NCBI RefSeq assembly: GCF_000189635.1
Contig: NW_002476422.1
Span: 451,125-515,124 of the forward strand
DNA from: Tetrahymena thermophila SB210
Lineage: Eukaryota; Ciliophora; Oligohymenophorea; Hymenostomatida; Tetrahymenidae
Length of the DNA: 64,000 bases
Direction: 5' to 3'
Made by a program: the position numbers and the translations under genes. The notes under the pieces were generated by a model. That model saw nothing but the letters and a program-made list of their open reading frames with translations. It was not told where the DNA came from and made no database searches. The first letter of the stretch is position 1; each line of letters opens with the position of its first letter. Positions 22,901 to 64,000 of the stretch are shown one piece after another.

Positions 22901-25900
22901 GTTAAAACTTGCCCAGATGGTACTTACCCAAATTCATCGAATAATATTTGCTCTTCTTGCAATTCAAATTGTACTACTTGTTCTGGACCAGCCTCTAATA
23001 GTTGCTTGTCATGCTCAGGAACGCTTTACTTAGACTCAACAGCAAATACTTGTGTGTCTACTTGCCCAAATGGATATTACGCTAATTCTTAAGGAAATAT
23101 TTGCTCTAACTGTAATTCAAGCTGTACTACATGCTCAGGTCCAGCTGACAATAACTGCCTATCTTGTTCAGGAAAATTGTATTTTAATTCAGCTCTTAAG
23201 AATTGTGTTTCTACTTGTCCAAGTGGAACTTATTCAAATTCTATTGGAAACATATGCTCTCCATGTAATCCTCAATGCGCTACATGTTCGGGAGGAAATT
23301 CTAATAATTGTTTATCTTGCTAAGGTTCTCTTTTTTTTAATTCATAATCTAACTCTTGTGTTTCACCCTGCCCTGATGGATATTATGCTAATTCCACAGG
23401 AAACTTATGTTCGACTTGCGATCCAAAATGCAAAACTTGCTCTGGAAATACCCTAAATAATTGCTTATCATGTTCAGGATCTTTATACTTGTATGGAAAT
23501 ACTTGTGTTGCTGATTGTCCTTCAGGAAAGTATCAAAATACTAATAATAATACATGCTCTTCATGTAATTCAAGCTGCACTACATGTTCTGGCCCAGATC
23601 CAAATAATTGTCTGTCTTGCTCAAATTCTTTATATTTGAACTCTTCTAATAATACTTGTGTTTCAATTTGCCCGAATGGGACCTATTAAAATTCATCTGG
23701 AAATATTTGCTCTGCTTGTCATACTACCTGTGCTACTTGTTCTGGACCTCTAATAAATAATTGTCTTACTTGCTCTGGTTCCTTACAATTAAATCAAACA
23801 ACTCATACATGCACATCAAGTTGTCCGAGTGGGACTTATAGTTCCTCAGGAAGCTGTTCTAGCTGTAACCCGAATTGCTTCACTTGCTATGGGTCTTAGT
23901 CTAATAATTGCCTATCATGCACAGGAACATTATATTTCGATTCAAGCAGCAACTCTTGTACAAATAATTGCCCAATTAAAACATTTGCTGATATCTCCAA
24001 CAATACCTGCTCAGTCTGTGATTCTTCTTGCACGAAGTGTTCTGGCCCTAATCAGAATAATTGCTCTTTCTGTCAAGGCTCTCTTTACTTAAATTAAGCA
24101 AACAATACTTGTATTTCTGTATGTCCAATAGGAACGTATTCAAACATTTCAGTCACTTTAGGAAATATTTGCTCTGCATGTCATTCATCATGTACTTCTT
24201 GTTCAGGTCCAAATTCAAATAACTGTCTTTCATGTTCAGGCACTTTATATTTTGATTCATCAAATAATACTTGTACATCTATTTGCCCAGATGGTACATA
24301 TTAAGATTCTTCAAGTAATTGCTCATAATGTAATTCCACTTGTGCAACTTGTGAAGGATCTGCTTCATTTTGCAAAAGCTGTTCTGGGACTTTATTCCTA
24401 GATGAAAGTACAAATAGTTGTAATCCTACTTGTCCTCAAGGTACTTATTAAAATGCCATTGGAAATATTTGTACTGTATGTGATCCAACTTGTACAACTT
24501 GTTCTGGTCCAAATTCGAATGATTGCTTAAGTTGTTCAACAACTTTTTACTTTAATGCTAATTAAAAAACATGTGTTGAAAGTTGCCCACCACAAACATA
24601 TGCAAATGCTGCATCAAATATCTGCTCAAGTTGTAATTCAAGTTGCCTAGCATGCAACGGTCCAGCATCTAACAATTGCATACAATGCTCTAATTCTCTT
24701 TATTTAAACTAATCATCTAATTAATGTGTTTCAATTTGCCCATAGGGAACATTTCCTGATGGATCAACAAATATATGCTCTAAATGTGATTTATCTTGCT
24801 TTACATGTTCTGGACCTTCTTCTAGTAACTGTTTAAGTTGTTCTGGCAGTTTATTTTTAAGCACATCTGGAAATGAATGCAAAAACAGCTGCAAAACCAA
24901 TGAGTTTTAAAATAATGCAAATAATTAATGTACTCCTTGTGATTCAAGTTGCTTAACATGTAATGGAAATCTTAATACAAACTGTCTTTCCTGTTCAGAT
25001 CCCTTATTTTTATAGTAATCTTCTAGCACTTGCATATAGAAATGTGATTCAAATTAATATGGCTAAATTACTCCTTAGCGTACTTGCTTAGTTTGCGATT
25101 CAACTTGTGCAACCTGTTCTGGCCCAAATTAAAATAATTGCTTGTCTTGTAGTGGTTCTAAATATCTTGATTTATCAACAAATTAATGTGTCACTTAATG
25201 TCCAAGTGGAACTTTCAATGATAATTCAAATAATAAATGCAGTCCATGCAATACTGATTGTAAAACATGTAGTGGACCTAATAATAACTAGTGTTTAAGT
25301 TGTTCTCTTCCTAAATATTTTTAAAAATCAAATGGAATGTGTTTAGAAAATTGCAATTCGAACCAATTTAAAGACAATGGCTCATGTACTGACTGTGATG
25401 CTTCATGTGCAGCATGCTCAGGAGCTGATGCAAATAATTGCTTAAAATGTAGTGGTAGTCTATTTTTAAATTAAAATACCAATACTTGTGTTTCATCTTG
25501 TCCAGACTCATATTACTAAAATACCTCAAATAATACATGTTCGAAATGCGATATAACTTGTGCTACTTGTAATGGTGGAACAAGTAGTAACTGCTTAACA
25601 TGTAATTCACAGTTTATTTATTAAAAATCTACTTCTAAATGCATTAGTTCTTGTCCAAGTGGATAATATTTAAATACAAACACAAACAATTGTGAATAAT
25701 GTGATGCCACCTGCCTAAATTGTGTAGGAGGTTCTAAAAATTAATGTGTAGATTGCTAGTCTCCTAGATATTATTAAAAATCAACAACATCATGTGAATT
25801 ATAATGTTAACCAAATTACTATGGTAATTCCTATACAGCTTTATGTGAGTAATGTGATGCCTCTTGTGCAACCTGTTCAGGTCCAAATAATAACTAATGT

Positions 25901-28206
25901 TTATCTTGCAAAAATTCATTATTTTTACTATAAGCTAGTGGAACATGCGTCAGCAATTGTCCAAATGGTTATTCATAGAATAACCTCCTTAATTAATGTT
26001 AAAAATGTGATTCTAGTTGTAAAGAATGTTCAGGTACTTCAAATACATAATGTACTTCATGTATTTCATAACTAATTCTATTCAATAACCAGTGTTTAAG
26101 CTAATGTCCTTCTGGTTATTTTATTTCTTAATCTAGTAATTAGTGTGTTCCCTGCGATCAAAGCTGTGAAAGTTGCAGCGGACAATTAAGTAGCAACTGT
26201 CTTTCATGCAAACCAGGTTTAATATTATTAATTTAATTTAATAACACTTTAAATATAATTATTTATTTAAAAGGTACCTTTTTGATATCGAATTAATGCA
26301 TTAGTAAATGTCCAGATGGATATTTTTAAAATAACTAAGAATGCTCATAGTGTCATCCATCTTGTAAGACTTGTGTTGGACCTAATTCTAATTAAGTAAT
26401 TAAATTATTTAAATTAATATATCAAGTAAAAGCTACAAATTTTAAATTAGCAAAAAAAAAAATTTAAATATTCTATTCAATATTACTAAAGTTTAATGAG
26501 AATCAAAAATTAAAATAAAATAAGTTTAGATTAAATTTTAAATATTGAATTTCAATCTTTGATTGATAACAATTTAAAAAAATTTATATAAAGAATGTCA
26601 TTTTATTATTGGTTTGTAAGTAAATACATACTAACTTATAATATATTTTAAATAGCTAAATAATAAAGATAATTTTTTTCGAGTTTAGATTTATTTCTCA
26701 TGAATTTCTAATATTTCTAATTGAATAATTTATTTTAAAAAAAGTGTTAAACATGTTTTGATTTGCTAATAAAATACAATTCAAGCTGTATTGTCGAATG
26801 CCCTAAATAAATGTATATGACTTAGACTCCATACAAGTAATGCATTGAATGCAATTTTTATTGCAGTTCAGGTTGTAGTGGGCCAACAAAAGAAGATTGT
26901 AATGAAATTAAACCAATATACCAAATTATAGTTTACATTTTAATTTCCAAGTCTTTTATTTGGGTTATATCAATAATTGTAGGGTTTCTTAAGGATAATG
27001 CCTAACAAATTTTACCTTTACAAAAAGTTGCTCCTTTAAAGAATCTAAAGGAGAATGAATAGGATCATATAAATAATAATTAACTTAACTAAAAAGATAA
27101 AAACTTATCTTTAATTGAGTTTTAACAAAATGACCCTAACTTATCACCACATTCAAAAATAGAAGATTTTAATGCTGATTAAGGAAGTAAATCTCCAAAT
27201 ATTCCAATTAACTAGAGGGGTTCTATTATGGTTCTTCCATAAACAAATAACAATTTAATGTAAAGTAAAAATTACCTTACTTTCAACAATGAGCAAAATG
27301 AAGAAGACAAAAGTCCATAAGAAATAGGGCGAAAAAGAAGATCACGCAAGATTGATTTTATTTTAAGAGGTAGCATTTCAAATTCTCCTTAAAAAGGATA
27401 ATAAACTATATCTAACTTGAATAATATGAAATCTACAATCTTAGACAAAGACTAAAAATTCTTTCCTTAGGATTAAACAACAGCTAATAGGTCCTTAGTA
27501 TCAATATCACACTCTCCAACAAAAAGGAATTTATTTTCTCAATTAAATGATACAAACTAGAATAAATACTCAGCTAATGAAAAGCTAAAATACTCATTTG
27601 TAATATTTATTAATGAAATATGACTTAAGTATTTATTAATAAAAAAATTAGTTATGCAATGAATGGATCAATCTATTTATTTATTATGATAACACTTTCA
27701 GTAGAGTATTAAGAGGAACTCTAATTTATTTTAAATATCAAATATTTTTTTTGGTCTGCCAATATTTTAAAAACGTAAATATTAAATTTTCCATTTAAAA
27801 TGAGTTAAAATGTTAATAAATATTTTAGGAAAACTACTATTATTCATTAATTTGCTTAGCCTCTGGATTTTCATCTAAGTCTGTGCTGGAAACAATTTTG
27901 AAATACCTGCTTTAACATTTAAGATATGCTCATACTATTTTTTAGTTAATACTCTTTACATCTATAGGCTTATATTTTTGGCTATGGTTTATACCTTAAA
28001 TAAATTAGTTAAACTATAATAATGATAAATCTTGGAGTATCATATATTTAATCACTTTTTCAATTGACTTTCTGCTCTTAAATTAGTTTGCAGGCTTTAT
28101 TTCATATCTAAGCTCAATAAAATATTTAAACTTAGAAAATGCTAATAAAACCATTTATAAATTTTTCAAAAGCAATTTTATTCTAAAATAATTAAAAAAA
28201 TAATGA
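19932..28206 (+). CDS. Giant Cys-repeat surface membrane protein, ~2295 aa
   Basis: Thirteen exons: 19932-19992, 20045-20574, 20670-20973, 21156-21366, 21419-21713, 21771-21939, 22266-22418, 22472-22567, 22626-26216, 26274-26395, 26745-27599, 27652-27774, 27829-28206; 6888 nt, all phases agree. Order: signal peptide; a lectin-like beta domain (about residues 21-190); Cys-rich linker; a second beta domain with GSYLLSGLFNNYFG (about 300-470); then roughly 25-30 furin-like repeats of the form CxxCxGPxxNNCLxC, mostly in one 3.6-kb exon. A membrane span near 26930-26990 is followed by a Ser/Lys/Asn cytoplasmic region and further hydrophobic segments (27652 onward), ending FKSNFILKQLKKQ. This architecture belongs to a large ciliate surface-protein family with extracellular Cys repeats and a multi-pass C-terminus. 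Ligand and role are unknown; adhesion or sensing is inferred. It contains no TGA codon in frame in the parts checked. Confidence 0.88.
22626..26216 (+). repeat. Coding tandem furin-like Cys repeats
   Basis: One exon holds about 24 diverged repeats of roughly 48-50 codons. Each repeat has a Cys-x2-Cys pair, then Gly-Pro, Asn-Asn-Cys-Leu-x-Cys-Ser-Gly, Leu-Tyr, and an Asn-Thr-Cys-Val...Cys-Pro segment. Spacing is regular but the copies differ at many third positions, so this is an old array kept by selection on the protein. It is not a recent DNA amplification and not a CRISPR. Confidence 0.8.
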
Positions 28207-28228: not shown

Positions 28229-29424
28229 TCAAAAATAAATTTCATCTTCTATATTAATTAACTATTTAAATTTCCTAAAATAGCTTTATACAAACAATTA
28301 ATGTCGTAGATTTAAAACTTTATATTATTTATCTGAATATTTTTATGAATAGACATCAAGTATTATCTCTAATTTCTTAATAATTTAAAGTTATTATCTA
28401 TTTACTTTCTATAAAACAGGGAAAAAACATAAATCATTTTGGCCTAATAATATAAAAAAGTTGTCATTCACATCCTTAGCCAATTTTAATACAATATCTT
28501 ATTTCTATTTATTTCCTATAGCTGTAATTTAGACAAATAATTTTTGTTTTTTCCCAATATATTTTATCTCAAAAAAAATTGTAAAATTTTTCCAAAGAAA
28601 TTTTAAAAATTCAATATAAATGATTAAAAAATTACATGATTAATTATAAATTAAAATAGACAGTCAACATATTCAAAATATAAAAATATTTTTATATTTT
28701 AATTAATTTTCTGATCTCAAAAAGAAATTAATTTGATATTAATGAGAAAATTTTAATAATTGAGAGAACACTCTGTTTTACCTTAAAAAATAATAGGAAT
28801 TATAAATTTTTATAGTATTTTTAGATAAATGAGTAATAAATAAAGATGATAAAATTAAATATAATAATTTATTTATAAAAATGAATGAAAATATTTTGCT
28901 AATAAAGGAAATGTTTGAAAGCCCAATAATTCTGACAAGATTGGAGCCCAAATAGGTAAAAAATTCAAAAATTTGATTTTTTAAATCCTCATATTGCGCG
29001 AGAATGTGCTTATAAAAAATAAAAAAGTAACAATAAAAGGCAATTTTAGCTGGAATCATTAAAATTAATAATAAAAAAATGATAAAAACTAATTATATGC
29101 TCTTGATTCAATTTTTTGTTTAGCAAAAGATTCATTCATATATTTTTTAATAGAGTTTAGATATTTATTAACACTTAAATGCATCAAATAATACAGAGAT
29201 AATATTCATATAATAATTAAAATTATACTAACTAACAATAAGAAAAGCAAGCAAGCAATAACATAAATTCTAATTAAATTTTATACACTTTTTATATCAG
29301 ATATACAATAGCGCTCTAAAACGTCTACTTTTTGTTGAGTGACTTGGGAATTAATAGCACTGATCTTATAAACACTTTTTGATACAAGAAATAATAAATA
29401 TAGATTAGAAACTATTTGATTCAT
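28229..29424 (-). CDS. Multi-pass membrane protein, exon structure partly resolved
   Basis: The proposed start is ATG 29424 (MNQIVSNLYLLFLVS), a signal-like or first membrane helix. Further hydrophobic segments lie at about 29260-29210 and in the frame 29059-28778 (IPAKIAFYCYFFIFYK, then several helices). The last exon (from somewhere near 28690 down to TGA 28229) reads cleanly and holds a soluble tail with LKLAKDVNDNFFILLGQND and LEIILDVYSQKYSDK. Frame changes between these blocks mean at least two or three introns, whose ends I could not fix. No family recognised. Its stop lies 22 bp from the stop of the giant surface gene on the other strand, so the two transcripts almost certainly overlap at their 3' ends. 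Confidence 0.6.
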
Positions 29425-29454
29425 TTTGATATTATAAATATAGTCTTTGGCAAT

Positions 29455-31554
29455 ATGGAAAAATAAACATCAGCAGCATTCAGCCAAGAATTTAATTTTA
29501 AGGAAGCAGATGAAGCTCCAGATGACTAGTTCATTATGAAGGGGGTTTACTTTAATGCATTTGGCGCTCCTGAGCATCATACAAATAACCAAGCCAAAAA
29601 AAAACCAAAAAAGCGTGCTTTTGCTAATCGTATTAGAGATTAACTTGATTAAATTTCTAAATTAAAAGAATAAGAAATGAATGAGTAGATAAAAGCTAAC
29701 AACAAAAGCGACTGTGGTAATATTTCTAGCGGTAATAATAACAACGGTAATTCAGCTCAAAGAAATCCTCCTTAAAATAACTACACCAATAACTCTGAAA
29801 GCAGTGATGATGATTCAAAATTTATAACAACTAAAGTTAATCATCTTTAATAATCGCGCATATAAAATGGAGGGCAGTAAAATTTACAAATGTAAAATTC
29901 CTAAAGCCCTTATATTAAGCAAAAGTAGCAGCAACTAGTCAGTCAAACTCTAAATAGTCATCCTCAATTGAAAGCTAATGATTTCATTGAAACAAATAAT
30001 ATATCCACTAATTACAATACAAACTATTAAAATACTTATAGTAAAAACACCTTTAGCAATATAATCAATACACCTAATATCGTAAATAGAAATATAAATA
30101 TAAATGTTTCAAATGATAGTTCTTCTTCAGATTAAGAATTCTAAGAGAAGTACAAATAATAAAACAAATCTAAAATCTCTCCTATCCCAGAAAACCCTCA
30201 ACAAAAAGTAGCAGCGCAATAACCTTCAACTTAAATGCTACTGAAGAATTAACAAGTTGGGATGCAAACATAAAATAATAATAATAATGTGAATAAAAAT
30301 ACATAAAAATCTAGCTATTAGGTTGGGGCAACATGCGTGTAAAACAAAAAGAATAAAAAACGCAACAAAAGCAGAGTCCTAGGATCTTCGAATCAATCTT
30401 TATCTAGTAACTTATAAATTAATCTTTAGAAAAAAAACAAACCATTTTATAGTGTGAACAAATCCTCTTCTTCAAGCTAATAAGAATTAGATGACGACTT
30501 AGAGGATGAAAATGAAACTTTTACTTAGCAGTATATGAATCATTAAAATATTCAAAATAATAATTAAGTATATTAAAATAATCTTTATTAATTTTAATAG
30601 AGACCAAATTTGTATAATCAATTTAGACAATAATAATAACAATAATAGCGTAGTCAAGAATAAAACGATACTTCTGATCTTAGTCCTTGCATATAGCCAA
30701 AGAATTAAAACTAATAGAATATTAATAGTAATGAGTATAACTAATAACTTTTAGACTCATCCATTCAAAGTGTGTCTATTAAAAAAACTATCAAAAACAG
30801 CTCTCAATCTATGTCGGCTGAGTCAGATATCGAAGAAGAATAAAATAAAAACAAATTTTTTGAAAGAAAAATAAATCCATTCTTTAAAAGCATTTCAGCA
30901 TAAGATACAAATCAACAATCAAATGCAAGCTAACAAAACTTAATAAGAAACAATAATAAATTGTCCAACTTGAAAATAGGAGGACAAACTACAGATTTTC
31001 AAAATAAATTTACTAGCAACAATAGCTTACAGTATCACATAAATGCGGCTGCTAACTTTGGAAACAGCTTGTTAAATAATCAAGCTAATTTAAGTGACAG
31101 AAAATCAGTTGCTCAAAGCCCTTAAAAACAATTATTTGATAGCGGAATAAAGCGTAGTAGTTTGCCTGTCAACAACGTCTTTAATAGAAATTCAGACGTT
31201 TGTAATAATGGAAGTAATTACAAAAGTAATTCAAGAGAAGACTATTACCAAAAAGAAAAGTTTATAAAAAACATAGATGGTGAATAAAGCATCATTACAG
31301 TCAAGATTGAAAACGTGAGCTTGAAGCCTTTTCAGACAGTAATAGCTGAAATAGTTTCTGTAGAAAGAATAAATCCTTAATATATTTCTTATACACTGAA
31401 ACCTTCTTAGATGATACATGCTATTTTGAAATAATCATATTCCTTGCAACACAACACTCTCTAAGTAGGATAGCAATACATTTTTAAATTCCATACTTTA
31501 GAGAGTTCAGGTAGTTTTCCAATCATTAACGTTAATGAATATATACCAAGATGA
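29455..31554 (+). CDS. Q/N-rich protein with ordered ends, 699 aa
   Basis: A single uninterrupted exon of 700 codons from ATG 29455 to TGA 31552. The first 85 residues look ordered (EFNFKEADEAPDD, a KKKPKKR basic patch that could be a nuclear signal, then a coiled-coil-like helix). A long Asn/Gln/Ser-rich disordered middle follows, with acidic clusters (SESSDDD, ELDDDLEDE) and a second basic patch (KKNKKRNKSR). The final 100 residues are predicted beta-rich (IITVKIENVSLKPFQTVIAEIVS ... VGQQYIFKFH) and could be an OB-fold, judged only by the alternation of hydrophobic residues. It starts 30 bp from the divergent gene's start at 29424, so the two probably share a promoter. No family recognised. 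Confidence 0.8.
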
Positions 31555-32765: not shown

Positions 32766-35700
32766 ATGTATTTATTTATTTATCTATCAATATTTATAAA
32801 CTTCATTCTTACAAATAATAAAGTTTTTAAACTCTTCTCTTTAATCTCATACAGTTCTCCATATTCATCTTGAGTAAGTTAAATTTATTTTTATCGTTAT
32901 TAATCTTTTTTTTACTTAGTTTTAAAAATATTATTTTTCTAATAACTTTTCATCTCTAAATTCATTTTTATTAATGCAATATATTTTTATTAATTTTGAC
33001 TTTTTCTAATTTTTAAATTTTACTTTGATTGTTAATCTATTTTTTTAATTACTTTATATTTTTTCTTCTAATTTACCTTATAACTAACTAACTAATTAAT
33101 TAATTTTATTTTCTTCTATATTTAAAAAGTGAAAATTAAATTAGTGATGAAAGTGTATTAGGATTAGGTTCTGCTTTAAGAAAATGCACTAATCTCATAA
33201 ATTTGGAGCTTTATCTCTCGTAAAAAAACTCTTTTATTTTGGAAAATGATATTTGTTTTTTAAAAAAAAATGAAATTAAATCAAAAAAACAAACTCTTTA
33301 ATTTAGTTAGCTTTATTTTGATTGTGTTTTTTTCTTTCTTCCTTTCTTAATTTAATCCATTTTTCTTTTTCAACTTTTGATTTTATTATTAAATTATCTC
33401 ATGTTTTTTTCATTTTTTCCTATTAACTAACTAATTAATTTATTATATTTTCTTCCATATTTATAAAGTGGAAATTAAATTAGTACAATTGGTTTATATG
33501 GTTTAGGTTCTGGTTTAGGAAACTGCACTAATCTCTCAAATTTTTTAATTCTTCTAAAGTAAAATTTTTTAAAATCACTTACTGTAAAAATATCAGTTGA
33601 TAGTTTAAGGAACAAAAATTTATTAAATTCAATAAATAATTTTTGATATTGATGATTTTTTTTTTTTCAATCTATTAATTTTAAATTCATGTAGTAGTAA
33701 TTTAAGGAGAGATAAATATTTATAATATTTCTAAATATAATATTAAAATATATTAATTTAGTTGATTTTATTTAATCTCTTTTAGATTTTATAATTTTAA
33801 AAATATTCCCCCATCCCAAAATGTTGATTAATTAAATAAATAATAAACTAATTTATAAAATATTTTTTTTTCAATATTTAAATAGTGGAAATAAAATTGG
33901 TGATGAAGAAGCAATATGTTTTGGTTTGTTTTTAGTAAATTGCACTAGTCTCTCAAGTTTAACACTTGAATTTATGTAAAATCAGTTTATTTGTTTTGGA
34001 TTGTGGTATTTTTTTATTAAAAAATGAGTTTAAAACTATAAAATTTTTTAAATTTAATTATTAACTTTTGATTTGATTTATTTTGCTTTTTACCTTGATC
34101 ATGTTTTTTTTCTTCTAAATTTAACTCATTTTTTCTTTTTCAACTTTAATTTGATAATTCATTTATTATTATTTGACATTTTTTCTTCATTTTTTCCTTT
34201 AACAACCTAATCAATTATTTATATTTTCTTCAATATTTGAAAGGGACAATTAAATAAGTTAAAAAGGTGTATCTGGCATCAGTTCTGCTTTAGGAAATAT
34301 AATTAATCTCTCAAATTTAAAACTTGAATTCAGGTAAAAACATATTATTAGTTTAGGGTTGTTATTTTTTAAATAGAAAAATTAATTTTAAAAAAATAAG
34401 ATTCTTTAAATTTATTTATTTATTAGCTTTATATTAGATTAATTTTGGTTTTTTATTCTGTTTATTTTTTTCATCTTTCTTAATTTAATTTAATATATTT
34501 AATTTTTTTATTTTCAACTTTTGCTATGGTTATTAGTTAATTTCTGATTAATTCATATATTTTCTTCATTTTTTTCTTCAAAAAGCAAATTAATGAATTG
34601 TGTTTTCTTCAATATTTAAAAAGTTACAATTTAATTGGTACAAATGGGGCATCAGACTTAGGTTTTAATTTAGCAAAGTGCACTAATCTCACAAATTTGA
34701 CACTTAATCTTTGGTAAAAACACTTTTCATTTTGTATGTGATATTTTCTAATATAAGAATGAATTTAAAAAAATTAAAACTCTTTATATATATTTGCTTG
34801 CTATCTTTTTTATTTGATATATTTTGCTTTCTTTTTTATTATGATTGTTTATATTTTTTCTTTGCTAATTTAAGAAATTTTTTATTTTTCAATTTTTGCT
34901 TTTATTGTTAATTAATTTTTTACTATTTATTTCATTTTTTTGTGATTTTTTCCTATCAACTAACTAATTATATATATTTTTCTTCTTCTATATTCAAAAA
35001 GCTAGAATTATATTGGCGATGAAGGTGTATTAGGTTTAGGTTCTGGTTTAGGTAAGTGTGCTAATCTCTCAAATTTGATACTTGATATTTCGTAAAAACA
35101 TTTTATTTATTTTGGACAGTGATACTTTTTAATATAAAAATGTATTTAAAACAATAAAACTTCATAATTAATATATTAGTTGTTTATTTGATTTATTTTA
35201 CTTTTTTATTTTGATTTCATTTTTTTTTATATTTTAATATAAATAATTTTTTATTTTTAAACTTTTGCTTTGATTATTTACTCATTTCTTATAAAAACAT
35301 ATTTTTTCTTCATTTTCCCTTTTACTAACTAACTAATTAAATTTTTTTCCCCATATTTAAAAAGTACCAATTAAATTGGCGAAATTGGGGCATCAGGTTT
35401 TGGTACTGCCTTAGTAAACTGCACTAATATATCAAATATGGTACTTTATATCTAGTAAAAGCAGTTTATTTATTTTGGATTAATGTTATTTTTAATATAA
35501 GAATCAATTTAAAATAATAAAACCCTTTTAAATTAATTATTGATTAATTTATTTATTAACATCTTATTTTATTTATTCTAATTCTAATTTTGTTTTTTTC
35601 TTCTTAATTAATTTAAACTAGCTTTTTAATTTCTACTTTTGCTCTCATTATTAATTCATTTCTTATTATTTCTCTTTTTTTTCTTTAATTTTAATTCAAT

Positions 35701-36329
35701 ATTTAAAAAGTTCCAATAATATTGGTGATGTTGGTGTATCAGGCTTAGGTTTTGGTTTAGGAAAGTGCACTAACCTCTCAAATTTGATACTTAATATTAG
35801 GTAAAAATATATTATTTGCTTTGAATTGTGAAAATTTTAATTTAAAATTGAATTTAAAACAATCAAATTCCATTAATTTAATTATTTACTTTTAGTTTGA
35901 TTTTTTATTGTTGTGTATTTTTTTTTTCTTTCTTAATTTAAATAATTTTTATTTTAAATTTTTAGTTTAATAATTTATTCATTTCTATATTATTGTTTTA
36001 TATTTTTTCCTCATAATAACTAATTAATTATAGTTTCTTTAATATTTAAAAGTGGAAATAATATTAGTTATAAAGGAGCAGTAGACTTAAGTTCTGCTTT
36101 AGCAAAGTGCACTAATCTCAAAAATTTGGAAATTGATCTCTAGTAAAAACTGTTTATTTTTTTCGATTCTTATATTTTTTAATTTATCCTTATTATTCTA
36201 TTTAATTTTGATTTATAATTTACTTTCATTTATATTGATAGCTTTAACAAAATCAGTAGTTTCGAAAAATTCAAACTTAAAACCAAATATCTTAAACCAA
36301 AAAGATTAGTTGCCTATAAACATTTATGA
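32766..36329 (+). CDS. Leucine-rich-repeat protein, array 1, start unresolved
   Basis: After an LRR-like exon (32766-32873) come nine exons of exactly 90 nt: 33130-33219, 33469-33558, 33886-33975, 34244-34333, 34624-34713, 35002-35091, 35365-35454, 35711-35800 and 36053-36142. All are bounded by phase-2 introns, and a terminal exon 36242-36329 ends at TGA. Each 90-nt exon encodes one 30-residue repeat of the ribonuclease-inhibitor-like type, for example NQIGDEGVLGLG followed by CTNLSNLTLNL. The end (KPKRLVAYKHL) is basic. Such proteins form curved scaffolds for protein binding. Upstream exons, and thus the N-terminus, were not found. No kinase or F-box domain is visible. Expression is not implied by the sequence. 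Confidence 0.8.
33130..36142 (+). repeat. Exon-intron units repeated at ~340-420 bp
   Basis: The nine 90-nt LRR exons recur with start-to-start spacing of 339, 417, 358, 380, 378, 363, 346 and 342 bp. The introns are also alike: they open GTAAAA, carry a CTAACTAATTAATT-like stretch and end in a TTTAAAAAG-type acceptor. The unit that multiplied was therefore exon plus intron, not the exon alone. Confidence 0.8.
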
Positions 36330-37085: not shown

Positions 37086-38615
37086 TCACTCTTCAGTGAC
37101 GGGGCACTTGAATTCGAGGAGTAAGTTATCATCAGCGTGGAGACCAGCACAAGCCTTGAAGATGTTATCAAGAGCACTCTTTTATCTGTAAAGGGAATTG
37201 ACAAGAGGAGTGTTTTCATCAGTCAAGGGAGCCTTGCAGAGATAACCTAAAGTGGATAAGACTCTGTTGAATCTTTGGAAGGTTCTCATACCATCAACCT
37301 TGTATTCGATTCTTTCAAATAATTCAGTGATGAGGATTAAATCAAGAATAATGGGAGCAGCAAGGAGAGAATCTTCACAAACGTTGTAAAGAACGAGGGT
37401 GTGTTGACCACCAAGGAAGATTTCACTGAGGTATTCATCCATAGCCTTCTTAGAGTCACCAGTGTAAGGAACATACTTAATGACGATTTCGTGATCGATT
37501 TTATTGGTTTCAGGGTAGAGGATCTTGTTGGAACCGGTGATATCATCAACGCATGATTTCTTGGAGAGTTCCTTTGACTTGAATTACTTTTCAGAAGAAA
37601 GATTCTTACCATCATTGTTACCCAAGTGATTGTAGGAAACGATGGATTGGGGCTTGATACCAGCACTGACGAGGAAATCAACCAAAGAGGTCTTAATCTT
37701 GGTTTAACCAGACTTGAAGTCATCACCAACAATGAAGACATCCTTTTGCTTGGCAAGTTCAATAACACCAGGAACGAGAGTATTTTGAGGAGAACCATTA
37801 ATATAGCTGCATCCTTCTAAGATGGTGGCGACGGCATAAACAGTAGAAGCAGAGATTTCAGCTTCAGAGTTTTCAATAGCCTTAAGGACATTTTCAGCAG
37901 TGTCATGAACACCAGGAGTGAGTTAGCAGAAACGTTCAGTGTTAGCAGTCCAAAGAACAATAACCTTATCGCAGTTGTTGGCAGCCTTGAATTCACGGAT
38001 GTCCTTTCTGATGGTTTCCAAGTGTTCAAGCTTGTTGTGACCTTCTAAGATGTTGTCAGCTCTGGTCTTTTGGTTGGCAGCGATGAAATCTTCATAGTAG
38101 ATAGCCTTCTTGGGGACCATATCTCTCATATAGGGGTCTAACTTTTCAATGAGGTTGTATTCTAAGACTTAAGCTCTCTTCATGGCTTGAGATAAGTTTA
38201 AGGCAGAGATATCCCAACCACCAATGACGACATCATCAGGGTTAACAAGGGGGAGGACTTAGTTCATGGGAAGATAAACTTCTTCAGAACCAGAGCAACC
38301 AACCTTAATGGTAGAAGCTTAGGTGATAGAACCGTAGTAGTTGGCAGTTTATTCACCTCTCTTTGTGAACCAGGAGAGCTTCATCTTGTTGGCAAGGAGA
38401 CCAGCAGTGAAGGTAGTACCGTTATTACCACCCCAACCGACGAGCATGATACCTAATTTAGGAACCTTAGTGTTGGTCTTGAAGGTGTATTCAGTGGTCT
38501 TAGGAGTAACCTTCAAGGTACCATTTTCAAGCTTTTCAACATTGGAGGACTTGTATTAGTAGGAAGCTTGGATGAAGCCGTTTTCGTAGGTAACGTTATT
38601 GGAGTTGACTTGCAT
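37086..38615 (-). CDS. INO1: Inositol-3-phosphate synthase
   Basis: A single exon of 510 codons, 509 residues; the yeast enzyme has 533. It converts glucose 6-phosphate to 1D-myo-inositol 3-phosphate with NAD+, the first committed step of inositol and inositol-lipid synthesis in the cytosol. The NAD-binding motif [10 protein letters not shown] lies at about residues 60-69. Other family motifs are [62 protein letters not shown] and APIILDL. The C-terminus is [12 protein letters not shown]. Codon choice is strongly biased (AAG, ATC, GTC, GGT, GCC), G+C is far above its neighbours, and there is no intron, as in highly expressed ciliate genes. Gln is still written TAA in places. The adjacent upstream DNA carries unusual TGCGCA palindromes. 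Identity is certain. Confidence 0.98.
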
Positions 38616-38805
38616 TTTAAAGATTTTTTTTAATTTTTTTTTTAATTATGTTTAAGTTGTTGGTATTTAAAAATTTTTTTAATTTATTTAATTATGATAA
38701 GACTTATTCATCCTATTAGAGCTATTTTTAAAGCTGGTAATTAACCATCATAGTTTTAAAATTAAATGCGTTCAAAATAATGTTAAGATTATTAACCAAC
38801 GAATC

Positions 38806-50486: not shown

Positions 50487-50898
50487 TAGTAATAAATTAT
50501 TTTATCATTCTACATAAGTTACTTACATGTTTATATATATGTTTTGAATTATAAGCACTTTTAATAGATAGTTTTTATTATGAACCTATACCAAATTTTA
50601 ATTTTTTTAGGAATTCATTTCTTTTTTAATGTTAATTAATTAATTGACTACCAATTAAATTATTTCTTTAAAATGAGAAAATTTGATATTTTTGATATAT
50701 ATTTTCGTTTATATTAATTCCTTTAATGTTATTTTATAACATTCTTCATTAAATATCTTAAAAAAGCTAATCATAATAGTGATGAAATTATAATAGCTAT
50801 TTTAAAAATTTTTTAAATTTGATTTTAATATTGAAATAATTATTAAAACTATATCAGTCAGTAAATAATATTATCAAATAAAAATAACAATTAAAAAG

Positions 50899-53800
50899 AT
50901 GATTTTTGGTTCAAATTAAAATAAAAAAAACGAAATTGTTATAGATAATGCAGTTGAAGAGAATTAATAGGTAAATATTAATTGAAGTAAAGAAATTAAA
51001 CTATATTTTCATTTTTTTAAATTAAGCTTAACATGTCTGCAAATGCCTTTGATGAGGAGGTCTAGCTTAGATTTTAGTAAAATTTTAAAAATTATTTTTA
51101 ATATTTATTTTTTTTTTATTATGAAGTAAAGTTTCTGAAGATTTTGATAATTATTCAAATATCCACTTCAAAAAGTTTGATTAAAACAAAGATTAACGAG
51201 ACATAGCTTGCTACTTAAAGTATATTATTATAAATTAAATAATGCAATAATCATTCTTTTTAAAATAGTAATAAAAACATAAAAGTTTTATAAGTAGCTC
51301 AAATAGCAAAAGGAATATCTCTCTGTAAGAATCTTTAATAACTAAAGCTAGATTTATCGTAATTATAAATAATATTAATTTAATTATTAAAAAACATATG
51401 GGTTTTAAATTTTAGATAAAATTAAATTCAGTCGTAAGGAGCTTTTCTTTTAGGTGAAGGAATTTCAGATTGTAGAAACTTAAAATCTCTTACAATTTTG
51501 CTAAAGTGAATATTTATTCAACTTAAGATCAATAATTTAATTTTCTTTCTTTTTATAGAAATAATTATATTTTTGTTGAAGGAGCACAAAGTATCTTAGA
51601 AAAAATAAGTACCTGTTCTGATATTCAATATTTATCTATTGATATGAGGTAGTTCATTTATTATAGAAATCTATTTTATATCCAATTAATTATTTTTAAA
51701 TTAATTAGCTCAAATTCAATTAAAGATAAAAAGGAATTTAAACTCAAAATGTGTTGCTTTAAGATATCATTATATCGTAAGTATTTTTAATAATGCTATA
51801 TTAATTGATTTTTAAGAGAAATTTAGTTTGAGCTAAAATATTGGAAACTTAAGTAATCTAAGAAGCTTGAAAATGATTTTGAGGTATCAATTAATTGTTT
51901 GAGTCAATACAAATAAAATAAAAAAACTAAATTAAAGCTAAAATTATATTGGGAATTATGGAATTTCTTAATTGGGTCTTGGAATCAGTAAGTGCAATCA
52001 ACTAGAAATTCTAAATTTGAACTTTTAGTATCTAATTTATTTAATAAATTGAATGACATTAAAGAAAAATTTGTAGGGAAAATTTAATACAAGATAATGG
52101 AGTTAAAGACTTTGCGTGCAGCATTAGAAAATGTTAAAAATTAAAGCAGCTTACTTTGAATTTCAAGTAAAAATTATCAATAATTTTTAAGAAATTTAAT
52201 AATTTATTTTGTAAAATAAAGCAATAATAATATAAAAGACTCTGGGATAGAAGAATTAGGATTAAGCATCAAAAGTTGTTCTTAACTAAACTTTATTCAC
52301 TTTAGCTTAGAGTAATAATTTCAATTTGAAAAAATAAATTCTTTGATTTAAAATGAATAATTTTGGAATTTCTTCTTTGATTTCATTTTTTTAGCAATAA
52401 TTAAATAGGTAAAAAGGGATTTTATTAGCTTGGATTAGGAATAGGAAAATGTAAATAATTAAAATAACTTTATCTTTCTACTGTGTAAAATATTTATTTT
52501 AAAGTTTATTTCTTAGTTATTTATATAAATTATAGAAATTATTCTTATCTTCCTATCGGTAAATGTGTCAATCTCATTGATATTTCTATTGTTTTCTAAA
52601 AAAAGTAGCAAAAATATTTTTTTAAAAGAGCGTTCTAAATAATTTTTAATTTAATTTAGCCAAATTTAAAGAGTTTCAGATTTCTCCAAAATGAGTGCTC
52701 AAATAGGAAACTTAATAAATTTAACTTCAATAAATCTCTTTCTTAAGTAGTTTAAATATTTTTTTAATTTATTAACTATTTAATTATATTATAGAACACA
52801 TAGGATAGGTACAAAAGGAGCTTAAATGTTAGGCTTAGCAATTAGTAAATGTATAAAATTGACTTCATTAAACTTAAATTTAAGGTAAATTAATTTGTTG
52901 TAAAATAGATTTAATTTAATGTATTTATCAAGCAAAAACGATATCAATGCAGAAGGAGGTAACTGTTTAGGCTAAGGTATTGGAAACTGCTCATAATTGA
53001 AAACTTTGAAGATTTATTTAAAGTTATTTTTTAAATTAATAAATTAAAATAATTGATAAAATTATGATAATTAGTAAAAATAAATTGGGAGCTTCTAACA
53101 TTATTTAAGGAATTTCTAAATGTACTCTTATTTCAACATTCTTGATAGAAATAGAGTAAAATTCGATTTATTTTCAAGATAAATAATAATTTATTTATTT
53201 ATTTATGGGAAATAGGTCAAATTTTATAAACTGCAAGCAAGCTTCCACATTTGCTATAGGAATAAATAAATTAGTTAATTTGAATTAATTTGATTTTAGC
53301 ATAAGGTAGATTATAAATTTATTTTGTTTTTGATAATTTTTTTAATTTATTTTATTAAAGCCAAAATGAAATATAATGCACAGGTTTGTATAAAATAACA
53401 ATTGATTTAGGAGTTTGCTCAAAATTAACTCAACTTAGCTTAGATTTTTAGTAACTTATTTAATATTTATTTTAATGAAAATTTATTAAATTTATTTTAT
53501 TGAAAAATAAAATTATAACAATTTATTTAATTGCTATATTTTAGTCTATTTTATTTATCTAGACTCTATCTTGAAAAATAATTAATAATTTTACATAGTT
53601 CCGCATATATTTGTAGTTTAAATTCAAACTTAACCTGAATCATTAAAAATGTGATTTTATTAAATTAAAATTTTAGCTTATCATCATATCTAAAATTTGT
53701 TTTACAAATAGTAGAATAACTTTTATTCAAAGTTAACGCTTGTATTATATTAAACTTAAGTAATAAACAAACAAATGATCATTTGAAATAAATTTATTTT

Positions 53801-54764
53801 ATTCAAGTTAATTTTTTATAAAAACATAGAGTTATTTATAACTTTGAATCTAATAAATCTCAATTTTATAAAATTACTTAAAGGATTAAATTAACTGTTA
53901 TTTACTTCTTTGAAAATTATTAATTATTTGGCAAATAAATACATCTTGATAATTTTTAATAAAAATTTAATTGGATAATTAATTTGCTTAAAATATAAAT
54001 TTTAAAATACATAAACAAGAAATAAAGTGAAAGGATTGATTTTTATAACAAAATGATAAATGCCTTTTAAATTTTAAAAATTATATAAACATAAATTTAA
54101 TTAATAGGGCAAATTATATTAGAGATTATGGTGTAATAGACCTAGGTTTATCGATTAGCTCACTGTTTAACTTGCAGAAATTAAAATTAAATTTATCGTA
54201 TTTTTTTTATATCTATTTTTATTATTTTTATGAAGAAATTAATTTAAAATTACGAAAAGAAATAATTTTATAGGAGATACTGGTATTTCTGGGTTAGCTA
54301 ATGGTATTGCAAGCTGTCATAAAATAGCTATTTTATATCTAAATTTACAGTATTTTTATTATTTACAAAAATCGATTATTTATTTTTAATATCTTAATTA
54401 TAAAAAGGTTTAATTACATAAAAGATTAAGGAATGATAGAACTTGCAACGGGAATTACAAAAATGAAAAAATTAACTTAAACTTCTATAAAATTAAATTA
54501 GTAATATTATTTAACAAAAATTAGTAATTTATTTTTGTGTAAAATAAGAGGATAGAATTAAAGTTTAAACTAGCTTTTTACCACTCAGATATTAAAATGC
54601 CATTAACTAAGTTTGATTTTCATCGAGTAACTTTTTTATTAAATTTCAATCAAATTAATTCAAATTTTATTAGCATATGTTAAGATTAAATTAATTGGCA
54701 AAAATTAATGAAGAGAAAATTAATAAGACTTGTTGATACTAAGAAATTAAACTAGACTTTTTGA
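50899..54764 (+). CDS. Leucine-rich-repeat protein, array 2, complete, 672 aa
   Basis: Twenty-four exons, 2019 nt in total: 50899-50970, 51027-51076, 51127-51219, 51269-51358, 51416-51505, 51559-51648, 51709-51776, 51817-51883, 51938-52027, 52077-52166, 52222-52311, 52395-52484, 52536-52604, 52660-52746, 52795-52884, 52933-53022, 53075-53155, 53216-53305, 53361-53450, 54108-54197, 54260-54349, 54408-54500, 54549-54626, 54674-54764. Fourteen exons are exactly 90 nt and nearly all are separated by phase-2 introns. The N-terminus (MIFGSNQNKKNEIVI) has no signal peptide. Each repeat follows the form N-x-I-(8-10)-LG-x-(4)-C-x-x-L-x-x-L-x-L-x-(L/F). The end is LMKRKLIRLVDTKKLNQTF. It is a soluble ribonuclease-inhibitor-like scaffold with unknown partner. 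One long intron, 53451-54107, interrupts an otherwise even array. Confidence 0.9.
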
Positions 54765-55633
54765 CTGATCTGAGTTTTTAAAAAATACTTATCAAGATAT
54801 TTCTTTAATAGTGGCTAAGTTTATTGTTAAAAAACAATAAATAAGATTAAAAATTGTTTCTTAAATGAAAATATTTATATTTAGTTTATTTTTTAAGTAT
54901 TGATAAAATTTACTAATTATCGTAAAGGATTAATAATTAATTATTTATTATTTAATTTCTGGCAATAGGTTTTAAATTATTTTGTTAAAATATTTGGCTT
55001 AACCTGAGGTTTTGACATTCTAAAAATGTGTTTCTTATAGAAAATTTGTCCCTCTTTAATATTTTATATAAAGTTTTTAAGAGGTCTAAATACTTTAAAA
55101 ATTATAAATTGGTTTCCTGATTAAATAAATTCGCTATATATAAATGTATTTTATTTGACTAAACTCCTTACTAATTATATTGCTTGATTATTTTTTATAT
55201 AGCTTATATCGAATACATAATAATATTTAAATAGAAATCTTAATTTAATTTTTAATAGTTTTTTAATAATTAAATTAGTAATAAAAAGAAGTTTTGAATT
55301 TTTTTAAAAGCTATATTTGAATGAGATAAGTTTTCTTTTATCTATTACGCTACTTACAACTTGAATATAATATTTTAACAAAAATCATAATTAATTAATT
55401 AATTATGTATTCTTCTGGGTGTCTTCTTTTATTAGCAATCTTTTATTTAGTTAAGGTTTATTTCTTTAAATAATTTATAATATTTAAAAAACTATTGATT
55501 TTATAATTTTAATACAAAAAAACCATAAATTGATATTATTACTAAGTTTTTTATCCATAAATTAATGCCTCTACTTTTATAAACACTCGCTCCTCAAGCA
55601 AATGCTTATTGTAATTTGAAAAATAATTGAATT
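54765..55633. other. Intergenic region before the tRNA
   Basis: AT-rich, with no coding frame supported. It carries the upstream flank of the tRNA gene. Confidence 0.4.
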
Positions 55634-55706
55634 GCCCGCCTAGCTCAGTCGGTAGAGCGCAAGACTCTTAATCTTGTGGTCGTGGGTTCGAGCCCCACGG
55701 CGGGCT
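55634..55706 (+). tRNA. tRNA-Lys (anticodon CUU)
   Basis: A complete cloverleaf of 73 nt without intron: acceptor GCCCGCC/GGCGGGC, D arm GCTC/GAGC, anticodon stem CAAGA/TCTTG with loop CTCTTAA (anticodon CTT), five-base variable loop TGGTC, and T arm GTGGG/CCCAC with loop TTCGAGC. It decodes AAG lysine. Internal promoters are intact: A box TAGCTCAGTCGG at 55641-55652 and B box GGTTCGAGCCC at 55685-55695. The base after the acceptor stem (position 73) is T. Confidence 0.97.
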
Positions 55707-60404: not shown

Positions 60405-62534
60405 TAACCATAATTTTGGTGAAAAAGGAACATAAGCTGTTAGCTCTGCATTAAAAAAATTGACAAATCTTCTGTATTTAAATTTAAATCTAAAGTAAAA
60501 ATATCTATCTATTTTAATTAAAGGTATTTCACAGAATAAAATAATTTTATTAAATATAGAAATAATAATATTGGCTAATTAGGCTTTTCAAGCTTAATTT
60601 CTAACTTGCAATGCTTAGAAAACTTAAAGACTCTCATTTTAAAAATTAGGTAAAAATAATTTACATATATAAAAATAAATAAATAAATAAATAATCCTGA
60701 CTATAAATATTTTGTTTTTAAGCAAATTTAAATTAACTTAAATATTTTAAACTCTCATTCCGATTTATTGCTTTTAACAATTTAATTTATTTTAAGGATA
60801 AAAATATTAATTATTTTAAATATACTTTTTAATAATATTTTATAAATAAATTTGTTTTAAGTATTTATATTATAAAAAAGTCGCGATTCAATATCCAAAA
60901 AAATTGAAAGTTTATCTTTTCTTTCTAGCTTAAAGAACTTATAAACTCTCTAAATAAGTCTTCCGTAATAGATATTTTTATTATTTTTAGCTTTTGCTAG
61001 TGAATGAAAATTTTTAATTTCAAATGAATCAATTTATATAGTTATATCATTTATAAAAAAAGATCGAATGACTTAGATGATAATTGTGCTGCTTATTTAA
61101 GTCCTGCTTTGAAATCTCTAACATAATTAACTAATTTATCTTTAAAATTAGGGTAAAGATAATTGACTGATATATATTTTATCAAATTGATAATGATTAT
61201 AAATCATTAAATTAAATATTTTTCATTTATTTAATAGATCTAATTAAATCGGAGACAATGGATTAAAAGCGCTAAATCTTACTTTCAAAGACTGCACTAA
61301 TCTTTAGAGTTTGTCTCTAGATATTAAGTATAAAAAAAATAATTAAACTAAAAATTTATTTTGAATAAGTTTTTATTAATTACCTTCTTTCCAATTTTAA
61401 TTATTAATAGATTTTAAATTTAAAATATTTAAAAAGGCTTGATATTTTATTTTAATTAATTATTTTAAAAATTCTCATAACAAATATTAAATAAACCTAA
61501 TCTTTAATTAATTTTTATTTTTATTTTTAATTTTTGCTAAAAACAATAAAAAGATCACATTTGATAGGTTCGTAGGGTTTTGCATCATTTTCATTTTTAA
61601 AAGACTGTTCAAGTCTCTCTTCCTTGAAACTTAAATTAGAGTAAAGAAAAATGCATAGTAAAATTAAAAAAATAAATATTCCTTATTTAAAGTATTAATG
61701 AAGATGATAATAATGCAACTTTTAGATTAGGAAGAGACCTTACCTCAATTAAAAATTTAAAGAGTTTATCACTTTAAATGAACGAGTAAAAAAATTTAGT
61801 TAAATTCATTTGTTTTATTTCTCTTTTAACTAATAAAGTTTATTAATAAAAATAATAAATTTATTTTTCTCTCTTGTAATGAATACTTAGTTTCATGGAT
61901 ATTGATCAAAAAAGCTAAATAGATTTTTTTTCTCATATAGCTGGTAGCCAAAGTCTTATAATTCTATCGCTCGATATTATGTTAAATATTAGTTGCTATT
62001 AAACTTAATAAAAAAATAGAAAACCTTTTTAAAAAGACAACTTTGCATATAAAAGATGGATCTAGAAAATAAAAAGATTAGTTCATTACTAACTAAAATG
62101 AATTAGGGTTTTACTGATACAAAAGATTTAATATGTTAAATACTGATGTTGCAAGTATTAACCAATTTAAATATATGATTATAAAGTATCATAAATTTAT
62201 ATATATTTTGAACAGAGTTTTTGTAATTTTTATTAATTTTTTTGAATTTAAAGGTTGTCTAAATATGCTTCGAATTTAAGCCGAATTGGTTAAGTTTCCA
62301 AGTTTTTACGGTATTTATTTATTCTATTTACGAATAGCATTAAGCTTAATAAATTGAGTTTAACACAAATCTGATTTTCACTTAAAATTTTAATATAAAA
62401 CTCTAAACCTCCTTTTCTAAACATGTCTTCATCAATTGTATACTTAACTTAAAGGTAGGTTTAGAAAGAAGAAAGCAATTAATTCATTATTTAGTTTAAA
62501 AAATCTTTATCTTAGTATTTAATGTTTACTAAAG
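60405..62534 (+). CDS. LRR array 4, ends unresolved
   Basis: Exons with matching phase-2 borders: 60405-60494, 60560-60649, 60881-60964, 61063-61152, 61238-61327, 61554-61640, 61693-61785, 61891-61980, of which five are exactly 90 nt. A weaker one is 62465-62534. The repeats include a well-kept copy (NQIGDNGLKALNLTFKDCTNLQSLSLDI at 61238, split here only for reading) and diverged ones such as NNNIGQLGFSSL and NLKTLILKI. Further LRR-like text lies at about 62280-62370 and 62890-62960. No secure first or last exon. It may be the 3' half of the same ancestral gene as array 3, separated from it by the transposase-like insert, or an independent gene. Confidence 0.6.
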
Positions 62535-63657: not shown

Positions 63658-63792
63658 TTATTTGATATTTTTAGCAATTTTATATTGATATTTCTAAAAG
63701 ATCTAATTTCTTTTAAAAAAATACTTTACTCGATAAAAAACAATGTAAAAAATAAATATACATTGACTCTCTTTAATAATCAATATTCTTAT

Positions 63793-64000
63793 GGGGTTGG
63801 GGTTGGGGTTGGGGTTGGGGTTGGGGTTGGGGTTGGGGTTGGGGTTGGGGTTGGGGTTGGGGTTGGGGTTGGGGTTGGGGTTGGGGTTGGGGTTGGGGTT
63901 GGGGTTGGGGTTGGGGTTGGGGTTGGGGTTGGGGTTGGGGTTGGGGTTGGGGTTGGGGTTGGGGTTGGGGTTGGGGTTGGGGTTGGGGTTGGGGTTGGGG
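63793..64000. repeat. Telomere, GGGGTT repeats
   Basis: Thirty-four perfect GGGGTT units plus a final GGGG, with no variant repeat. The G-rich strand runs 5' to 3' off the right edge, as expected for a right-hand chromosome end. Perfect homogeneity from the first unit indicates telomerase addition directly onto unique sequence, as happens when macronuclear chromosomes are healed after programmed breakage. The true length may exceed what the window shows. Confidence 0.98.

Follow-up and report, generated by a model that had tools for sequence, protein, structure and literature searches.

Introduction

Xiong et al. (2019; PMC6564038) described thousands of leucine-rich repeat (LRR) genes in Tetrahymena that carry tandem exons of exactly 90 bp. 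As far as the available text of that paper goes, T. thermophila has 1,874 LRR genes, 1,500 of them with at least one 90-bp exon; a gene of this class has one or more exons of exactly 90 bp, mostly in unbroken runs of no fewer than three; over 98% of the introns preceding such exons are in phase 2; and the leucine codons are centred at exon nucleotides 36, 48, 66, 75, 81 and 87. The genes were grouped by age, those without 90-bp exons being regarded as the oldest group, while group II was marked by introns of about 56 bp and by the absence of intragenic nucleotide-level repeats, its members being left unmasked by 8 consensus repeats. Changes in repeat number were attributed to germline recombination and exon shuffling, ectopic and perhaps aided by a non-LTR retrotransposon, and a role of the proteins in recognition was proposed by the authors. 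The 90-nt phase-2 LRR exon pattern is already known, genome-wide, in T. thermophila. Here, one gene with this pattern (gene B) is analysed, which lies in a 64,000-nt stretch of T. thermophila DNA (the window; bases 451125-515124 of a 515124-base contig, reaching the contig end), together with three neighbouring arrays of 90-nt exons (arrays A, C and D) and related arrays elsewhere in the genome.

Uniform LRR exons are also found in human NLRP3, where, in the available text of PMC6642158, exons of 171 bp each hold two repeats of 28/29 residues and skipping of exon 5 was shown by RNA. In a survey of skipped exons (Grau-Bove et al. 2018; PMC6142364, available text), based on reads mapped without multiple alignments, T. 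thermophila was the sole non-animal with an animal-like 3n bias of skipped exons (p = 2.18e-5). The reading favoured here, with a probability of roughly 0.85, is that gene B is a group II 90-bp-exon LRR gene near a telomere in which one exon encodes one 30-residue LRR, repeat number can change in the germline without loss of frame, and the intron was gained within an existing repeat and then amplified.

Results

A gene of 90-nt LRR exons

The ciliate code, in which TAA and TAG encode Gln and TGA is the sole stop, was used throughout. When the start was left free, a splice-aware search began gene B at the ATG at 50899 and ended it at the TGA at 54766-54768 (score 341), not at 54764 as in a first-pass annotation of this DNA. 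The preferred model has 21 exons (1758 nt; 585 open codons from ATG to TGA), of which 13 are exactly 90 nt; these span 51269-54349, and each is preceded by AG, followed by GT, entered in phase 2 and open in that phase, in agreement with the earlier description of an LRR gene built of 90-nt exon modules. At lower intron cost a model of 23 exons (1893 nt) was obtained, which adds exons of 68 and 67 nt linked by a phase-1 intron. The 24 exons, 14 of them of 90 nt, and the 2019 nt counted in the first-pass annotation were not reproduced by either model. A 14th AG-90-GT window within gene B, at 52660-52749, scored -27.6 with the repeat profile, and the model places an exon of 75 nt there instead. 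Phase 2, which had been assigned to the introns in general, holds for 19 of the 20 introns of the 21-exon model; intron 1 is in phase 0, and the 23-exon model contributes its phase-1 intron. A gene model without a bonus for 90-nt exons fragmented the repeats into small exons and started at 51121; it was replaced by the bonus model.

The longest run of consecutive 90-nt exons is seven in the 21-exon model and four in the 23-exon model, and the remaining exons of the former measure 72, 50, 93, 69, 75, 81, 93 and 55 nt. Its introns have a median length of 55.5 nt (n = 20), three of the 20 being 213-657 nt long, and G+C content is 0.255 in exons and 0.146 in introns. The longest intron, a 657-nt gap, may conceal degenerate LRR exons. 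The models show the anatomy of gene B exon by exon (Table 1).

Table 1. Features of gene B, the neighbouring arrays and the end of the window (window coordinates). Scan, AG-90-GT scan; profile, full repeat profile; model, gene model; A-profile, profile trained on array A only.
Feature	Position	Strand	Evidence
Array A: nine exons, each exactly 90 nt; introns of 249-327 nt; nucleotide-level repeat	33130-36142	+	scan, A-profile, direct repeats, genome search, gene search
Gene B, ATG to TGA, 21 exons (preferred model)	50899-54768	+	gene-structure search; free start picks same ATG
Exon 1, 72 nt, non-repeat N-terminus, then phase-0 intron	50899-50970	+	model
Exon 2, 50 nt	51027-51076	+	model
Exon 3, 93 nt	51127-51219	+	model
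LRR exon, 90 nt	51269-51358	+	scan, profile, model
LRR exon, 90 nt	51416-51505	+	scan, profile, model, A-profile
LRR exon, 90 nt	51559-51648	+	scan, profile, model
Possible half exon, 68 nt (23-exon model only)	51709-51776	+	model, uncertain
Possible half exon, 67 nt (23-exon model only)	51817-51883	+	model, uncertain
LRR exon, 90 nt	51938-52027	+	scan, profile, model, A-profile
LRR exon, 90 nt	52077-52166	+	scan, profile, model, A-profile
LRR exon, 90 nt	52222-52311	+	scan, profile, model
LRR exon, 90 nt	52395-52484	+	scan, profile, model, A-profile
Degenerate LRR exon, 69 nt	52536-52604	+	model
Degenerate LRR exon, 75 nt (90 nt with alternative borders 52660-52749)	52672-52746	+	profile, model
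LRR exon, 90 nt	52795-52884	+	scan, profile, model, A-profile
LRR exon, 90 nt	52933-53022	+	scan, profile, model, A-profile
LRR exon, 81 nt	53075-53155	+	model
LRR exon, 90 nt	53216-53305	+	scan, profile, model
LRR exon, 90 nt	53361-53450	+	scan, profile, model
657-nt gap, modelled as single intron	53451-54107	+	both models
LRR exon, 90 nt	54108-54197	+	scan, profile, model, A-profile
LRR exon, 90 nt	54260-54349	+	scan, profile, model, A-profile
LRR exon, 93 nt	54408-54500	+	profile, model
Last exon, 55 nt, TGA at end	54714-54768	+	model
Array C: three 90-nt exons, degenerate and with low scores	56965-57860	+	scan, A-profile, gene search
Array D: five 90-nt exons and others of 84, 87 and 93 nt, each with phase-2 entry	60405-61980	+	scan, A-profile, gene search
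Macronuclear telomere, (TTGGGG)n	63792-64000	+	final 209 bases of window

The modelled protein matched PF13516 (E 4.5e-12; 45.5 bits, cut-off 23.4), and its distant PDB matches included the 'Ribonuclease inhibitor-like protein' 9y6s_4e (E 1.3e-7). As had been claimed, one exon equals one repeat: each 90-nt exon encodes one 30-residue LRR that resembles those of ribonuclease inhibitor, with one residue per repeat split 2+1 over the intron. Ribonuclease-inhibitor LRRs, however, alternate between 28 and 29 residues, and the likeness is one of sequence only. The consensus of the gene B exons has L at exon positions 36, 66, 75, 81 and 87 and I at 48. Across the 13 exons mean nucleotide identity is 0.48, and by codon position it is 0.46, 0.62 and 0.38 (positions 1, 2 and 3); positions 1 and 2 are better kept than position 3, which would be expected if conservation acted on the protein sequence.

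Runs of 90-nt exons, entry in phase 2 and LRR coding are thus all found in gene B, as in the published class. With group II of the same species it further shares introns of about 56 nt and the lack of a repeated exon-intron unit, and in exon length, intron phase and length, coding and repeat content no substantial difference from that group was found. Only one pair of direct repeats of at least 40 nt is present (54 nt, in introns), and a search of the genome with gene B DNA gave 14 matches beyond gene B itself, 42-104 nt long; all genome-wide searches covered a single 101-Mb assembly made up of 445 contigs. By intron length and lack of nucleotide-level repeats, gene B fits the older, group II type of the class, and its short introns and missing repeat unit set it apart from group III.

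Some repeats of gene B are degenerate (the exons of 69, 75 and 81 nt, and the 657-nt gap) and array C scores low, as would be expected if gene B were a decaying pseudogene. Yet the modelled frame is open from ATG to TGA, and the repeats are more alike at codon positions 1 and 2 than at 3, which makes decay very improbable. The earlier statement that the intact exon sum shows a copy 'functional in design' was nevertheless too strong, codon-position conservation notwithstanding: where TGA is the sole stop, an open frame is weak evidence.

Independent support for the exon pattern

Across the whole window, AG, 90 bases and GT with an open phase-2 frame occur 78 times on the plus strand and 61 times on the minus strand; thus the splice pattern by itself says little, and it is sequence content that discriminates. 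The gene-model searches favour 90-nt LRR exons and their training set consists partly of the window's own exons, so that their scores are not independent evidence. An independent test was provided by a 29-residue profile trained solely on the nine exons of array A (33-36 kb) and applied at a threshold of 15. Beyond 40 kb it marked 11 places, namely eight gene B exons and three exons in arrays C and D, and all 11 have AG and GT exactly at their borders, while five of the 13 gene B exons of 90 nt score under the threshold. At the same threshold the window's minus strand and its bases 1-33000 gave no match, nor did the sequence of 50600-55200 in 300 dinucleotide shuffles. With the profile from all 30 training exons, the 13 exons score 22-40.

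A near-identical gene search, with a codon table that excludes TERT codons, was run on the other arrays and on controls, giving scores of 375.6 for array A, 63.4 for array C and 136.9 for array D but 1.0-2.5 for four control stretches, in which no 90-nt exon was modelled. That the same rule holds in three neighbouring arrays, as the first-pass annotation had it, is upheld by the models, which give array A nine 90-nt exons, array C three and array D five; the three exons of C and D marked by the array-A-only profile are among them. Because the array D model includes a 1-nt 'exon', its 5′ end cannot be trusted.

Related arrays with and without introns

Array A contains a 160-nt unit in nine copies, with repeats 68.5% identical at the nucleotide level. 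With 28 of 978 candidates scored, its DNA gave at least 114 further genome matches at E values up to 0.001, the longer ones at 65-76% identity. In its 90-nt exons, long introns, exon-intron repeat at the nucleotide level and many genome relatives, array A resembles group III of the published class. Thirty loci, array A included and some of them overlapping, were taken from this search as the sample of interrupted arrays. A search for further arrays of 90-nt phase-2 LRR exons had been put forward as a check in the first-pass annotation; in these loci, 245 of 254 unique repeats are exactly AG-90-GT, eight lacking AG and one lacking GT.

With 113 of 227 candidates scored, a protein query of 12 joined gene B exon cores gave at least 89 matches, among them 11 pieces of gene B itself. 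Thirty loci, some overlapping, were cut out from this search, one being gene B; in all 29 others the repeats adjoin without introns (for example G000:C54:83618, C258:185709 and C209:313449). These intron-free loci hold 223 unique repeats: one has AG before it and GT after it, 38 have just the AG, three have just the GT and 181 have neither. In the 27 arrays of at least three repeats, 189 of 191 spacings are multiples of three, with 128 of 90 nt and 32 of 93 nt. In some arrays (L014, L027, L029, L030 and L033), 93-nt spacings, which correspond to 31-residue repeats, make up roughly half of the total or more. Repeat length, consensus and register are those of gene B, but introns between neighbouring repeats are absent. 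Mean nucleotide identity between repeats is 0.40-0.56 in 25 of the 27 arrays; the others have 0.67 (three repeats) and 0.70, the latter being C54:83618, whose 11 repeats are about as alike as those of array A. This last array (G000:C54:82091-86116; L007, L023) shares its contig with a 90-nt-exon array resembling group III, ~22 kb away at G000:C54:104694-109440 (L049).

Gene B appeared nearer to the intron-free (0.83) than to the interrupted arrays (0.68), a comparison that was left unused as gene B had served as query for the former and array A for the latter. Likewise no claim is made for a bias towards the ends of contigs. Within 50 kb of an end fall 16 of 22 array-A-like places (11.7 expected) and 6 of 21 intron-free ones (5.6 expected), counts that come from places hand-picked among 115 array A matches and 89 gene B matches, nearly all one per contig, on contigs that are not all whole chromosomes. 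That one genome carries this repeat in intron-free arrays as well may be new; in the available text of PMC6564038, the words intronless and intron gain do not occur, and a single possible fusion of two 90-bp exons is reported.

A model for the origin of the exons

The exact exon length would be that of a 30-codon protein repeat that already existed; this repeat would have acquired an intron at AG|T, which then spread as the exon-intron unit was amplified. Intron gain at this site is suggested by the shared register of the intron-free arrays and by Ser AGT, which outnumbers every other border codon in both forms; amplification of a unit so interrupted would explain the exact 90-nt length and the uniform phase together. 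The introns of gene B would be removed constitutively, the number of repeats being set by the number of exons, and that number would shift chiefly across generations through unequal recombination of exon-intron units in the germline nucleus. The product would be a solenoid of LRRs to which other molecules bind.

Several points weigh against this model. The exon borders of gene B are predicted, with its non-90-nt exons and the 657-nt gap uncertain, and the binding function is drawn solely from the repeat family. The agreement in register (column-frequency correlation 0.85 between the intron-free and interrupted consensus, -0.04 to 0.24 when shifted by 1-5 columns) is partly built in, as one profile selected and aligned both forms. 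At the border, Ser is found in 31 of 128 intron-free repeats (AGT in 16) and in 55 of 218 interrupted ones, gene B excluded (AGT in 42), so AGT, at 12.5% and 19%, is just the commonest codon and not a rule. The 12-core query favours uninterrupted, B-like frames, which biases the likeness of the arrays found to gene B and leaves their abundance unmeasured. The intron-free arrays, moreover, could have lost their introns by retroposition.

If so, the 90-nt exon arrays would be the older form and the intron-free arrays retrocopies from which all introns went at once, in line with a repeat and register common to both forms, with the near absence of introns inside the intron-free arrays and with the 70% nucleotide identity at C54:83618, by which some of these arrays are recent. 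Most, however, are not young, the 25 arrays at 0.40-0.56 being comparable with gene B (0.48); they often show 93-nt spacings (32 of 191), and the available text of PMC6564038 reports just the one possible exon fusion and ranks genes without 90-bp exons as the oldest. Retroposition is therefore considered unlikely, and intron gain followed by amplification is preferred.

Consequences of joining and skipping exons

With array borders in phase 2, an exon-intron unit can be gained or lost without frameshift, which would make recombination of such units in the germline frame-safe. The first-pass annotation had held that any exon can be gained, lost or skipped without breaking the frame, and for the 90-nt exons this stood up: their forward joins create a TGA at the junction in none of 78 cases in gene B, none of 36 in array A and 2 of 1150 within the 30 array-A-related loci. 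Selection for skip-safe junctions was considered and dropped, as 2 of 1150 is not clearly off composition (~5 expected, an estimate). Exons ending in TG are scarce in these loci (11 observed, 28.4 expected among 245 exons), but this is not evidence of selection because TGN codes just for Cys, Trp or stop.

The same annotation had seen in gene B a combinatorial scaffold, in which alternative splicing could vary repeat number; regulated skipping of 90-nt exons would then let one gene make proteins with different numbers of repeats. The stop-free joins, the 3n bias of skipped exons in T. thermophila and the precedent of exon 5 in NLRP3 all point that way. With NLRP3, gene B shares a fixed place of the border in the repeat, uniform exon lengths (13 of 21 exons), exons whose skipping would keep the frame and ribonuclease-inhibitor-like LRRs, whereas it differs in repeat and exon length and is known from DNA alone. 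The lack of stops at joins, however, is largely an effect of composition; the available text of PMC6142364 names no LRR genes (the terms 'leucine', 'lrr' and 'repeat' do not occur in it), and neither 'alternative splicing' nor 'isoform' occurs in that of PMC6564038. Introns of ~55 nt also suggest that splice sites are paired across the intron, so that failure would result in retention rather than skipping, and in Paramecium bursaria, a related short-intron ciliate, intron retention and alternative 3′ sites are the most frequently regulated events (PMC12862383, available text). If retained, five of the 20 gene B introns keep the frame without a stop, while eight introduce an in-frame TGA. Regulated skipping thus seems improbable, and constitutive removal of the introns, with repeat number changed in the germline, is preferred.

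Chromosomal context

The repeats that close the window are of the unit TTGGGG, which we take to be the telomere repeat of T. thermophila, and they place it at a chromosome end: the window forms the telomere-bearing end of a macronuclear chromosome, with gene B about 9 kb from the telomere. The same assembly holds a telomerase reverse transcriptase (TERT) gene whose product agrees residue for residue with PDB chain 6d6v_A, from T. thermophila, across the core of the alignment, with the exception of unspliced stretches and of the residues at which the alignment begins. Shortly 3′ of gene B lies a tRNA-Lys gene (anticodon CTT; 55634-55706, plus strand). Between array A and gene B, a myo-inositol-1-phosphate synthase gene is encoded on the minus strand in the ciliate code (37089-38747; PF07994, E 1.8e-139; PF01658, E 4.7e-34). 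A bacterial reading of part of the window was rejected, the stretch of odd residues at 37-39 kb being the opposite strand of this gene, and the standard-code translation of that stretch found no matches when used as a query.

Upstream of array A, a cysteine-rich open frame of 1457 residues (22175-26545, plus strand), with matches to PF14843, PF03302 (VSP), PF15913 and PF00757, probably encodes a surface protein; more cysteine-rich stretches precede it from ~20 kb. An Asn/Gln-rich open frame of 723 residues (29383-31551, plus strand) has no Pfam match at E 0.001.

Discussion

Gene B is a well-formed member of the published class; the first-pass annotation had the right type of anatomy, with counts that were a little off, and the proposal that its exons may be skipped has one circumstantial support. 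Two published observations, the 90-nt phase-2 LRR exons and the 3n bias of skipped exons in T. thermophila, can be joined here, as these arrays might explain that bias; among the papers listed, judged by title and abstract opening, none was found to link the two. It is conceivable, if rather doubtful, that the 3n excess stems from the many 90-nt phase-2 LRR exons of T. thermophila and that the repeat number of putative recognition proteins is varied both by germline recombination and by skipping within the cell, in convergence with NLRP3. If this were true, a single-celled organism would vary the repeat number of such proteins in its germline and within one cell. As one genome holds the same 30-codon repeat with border introns present or absent, the origin of a family in which one exon is one repeat becomes approachable by trees.

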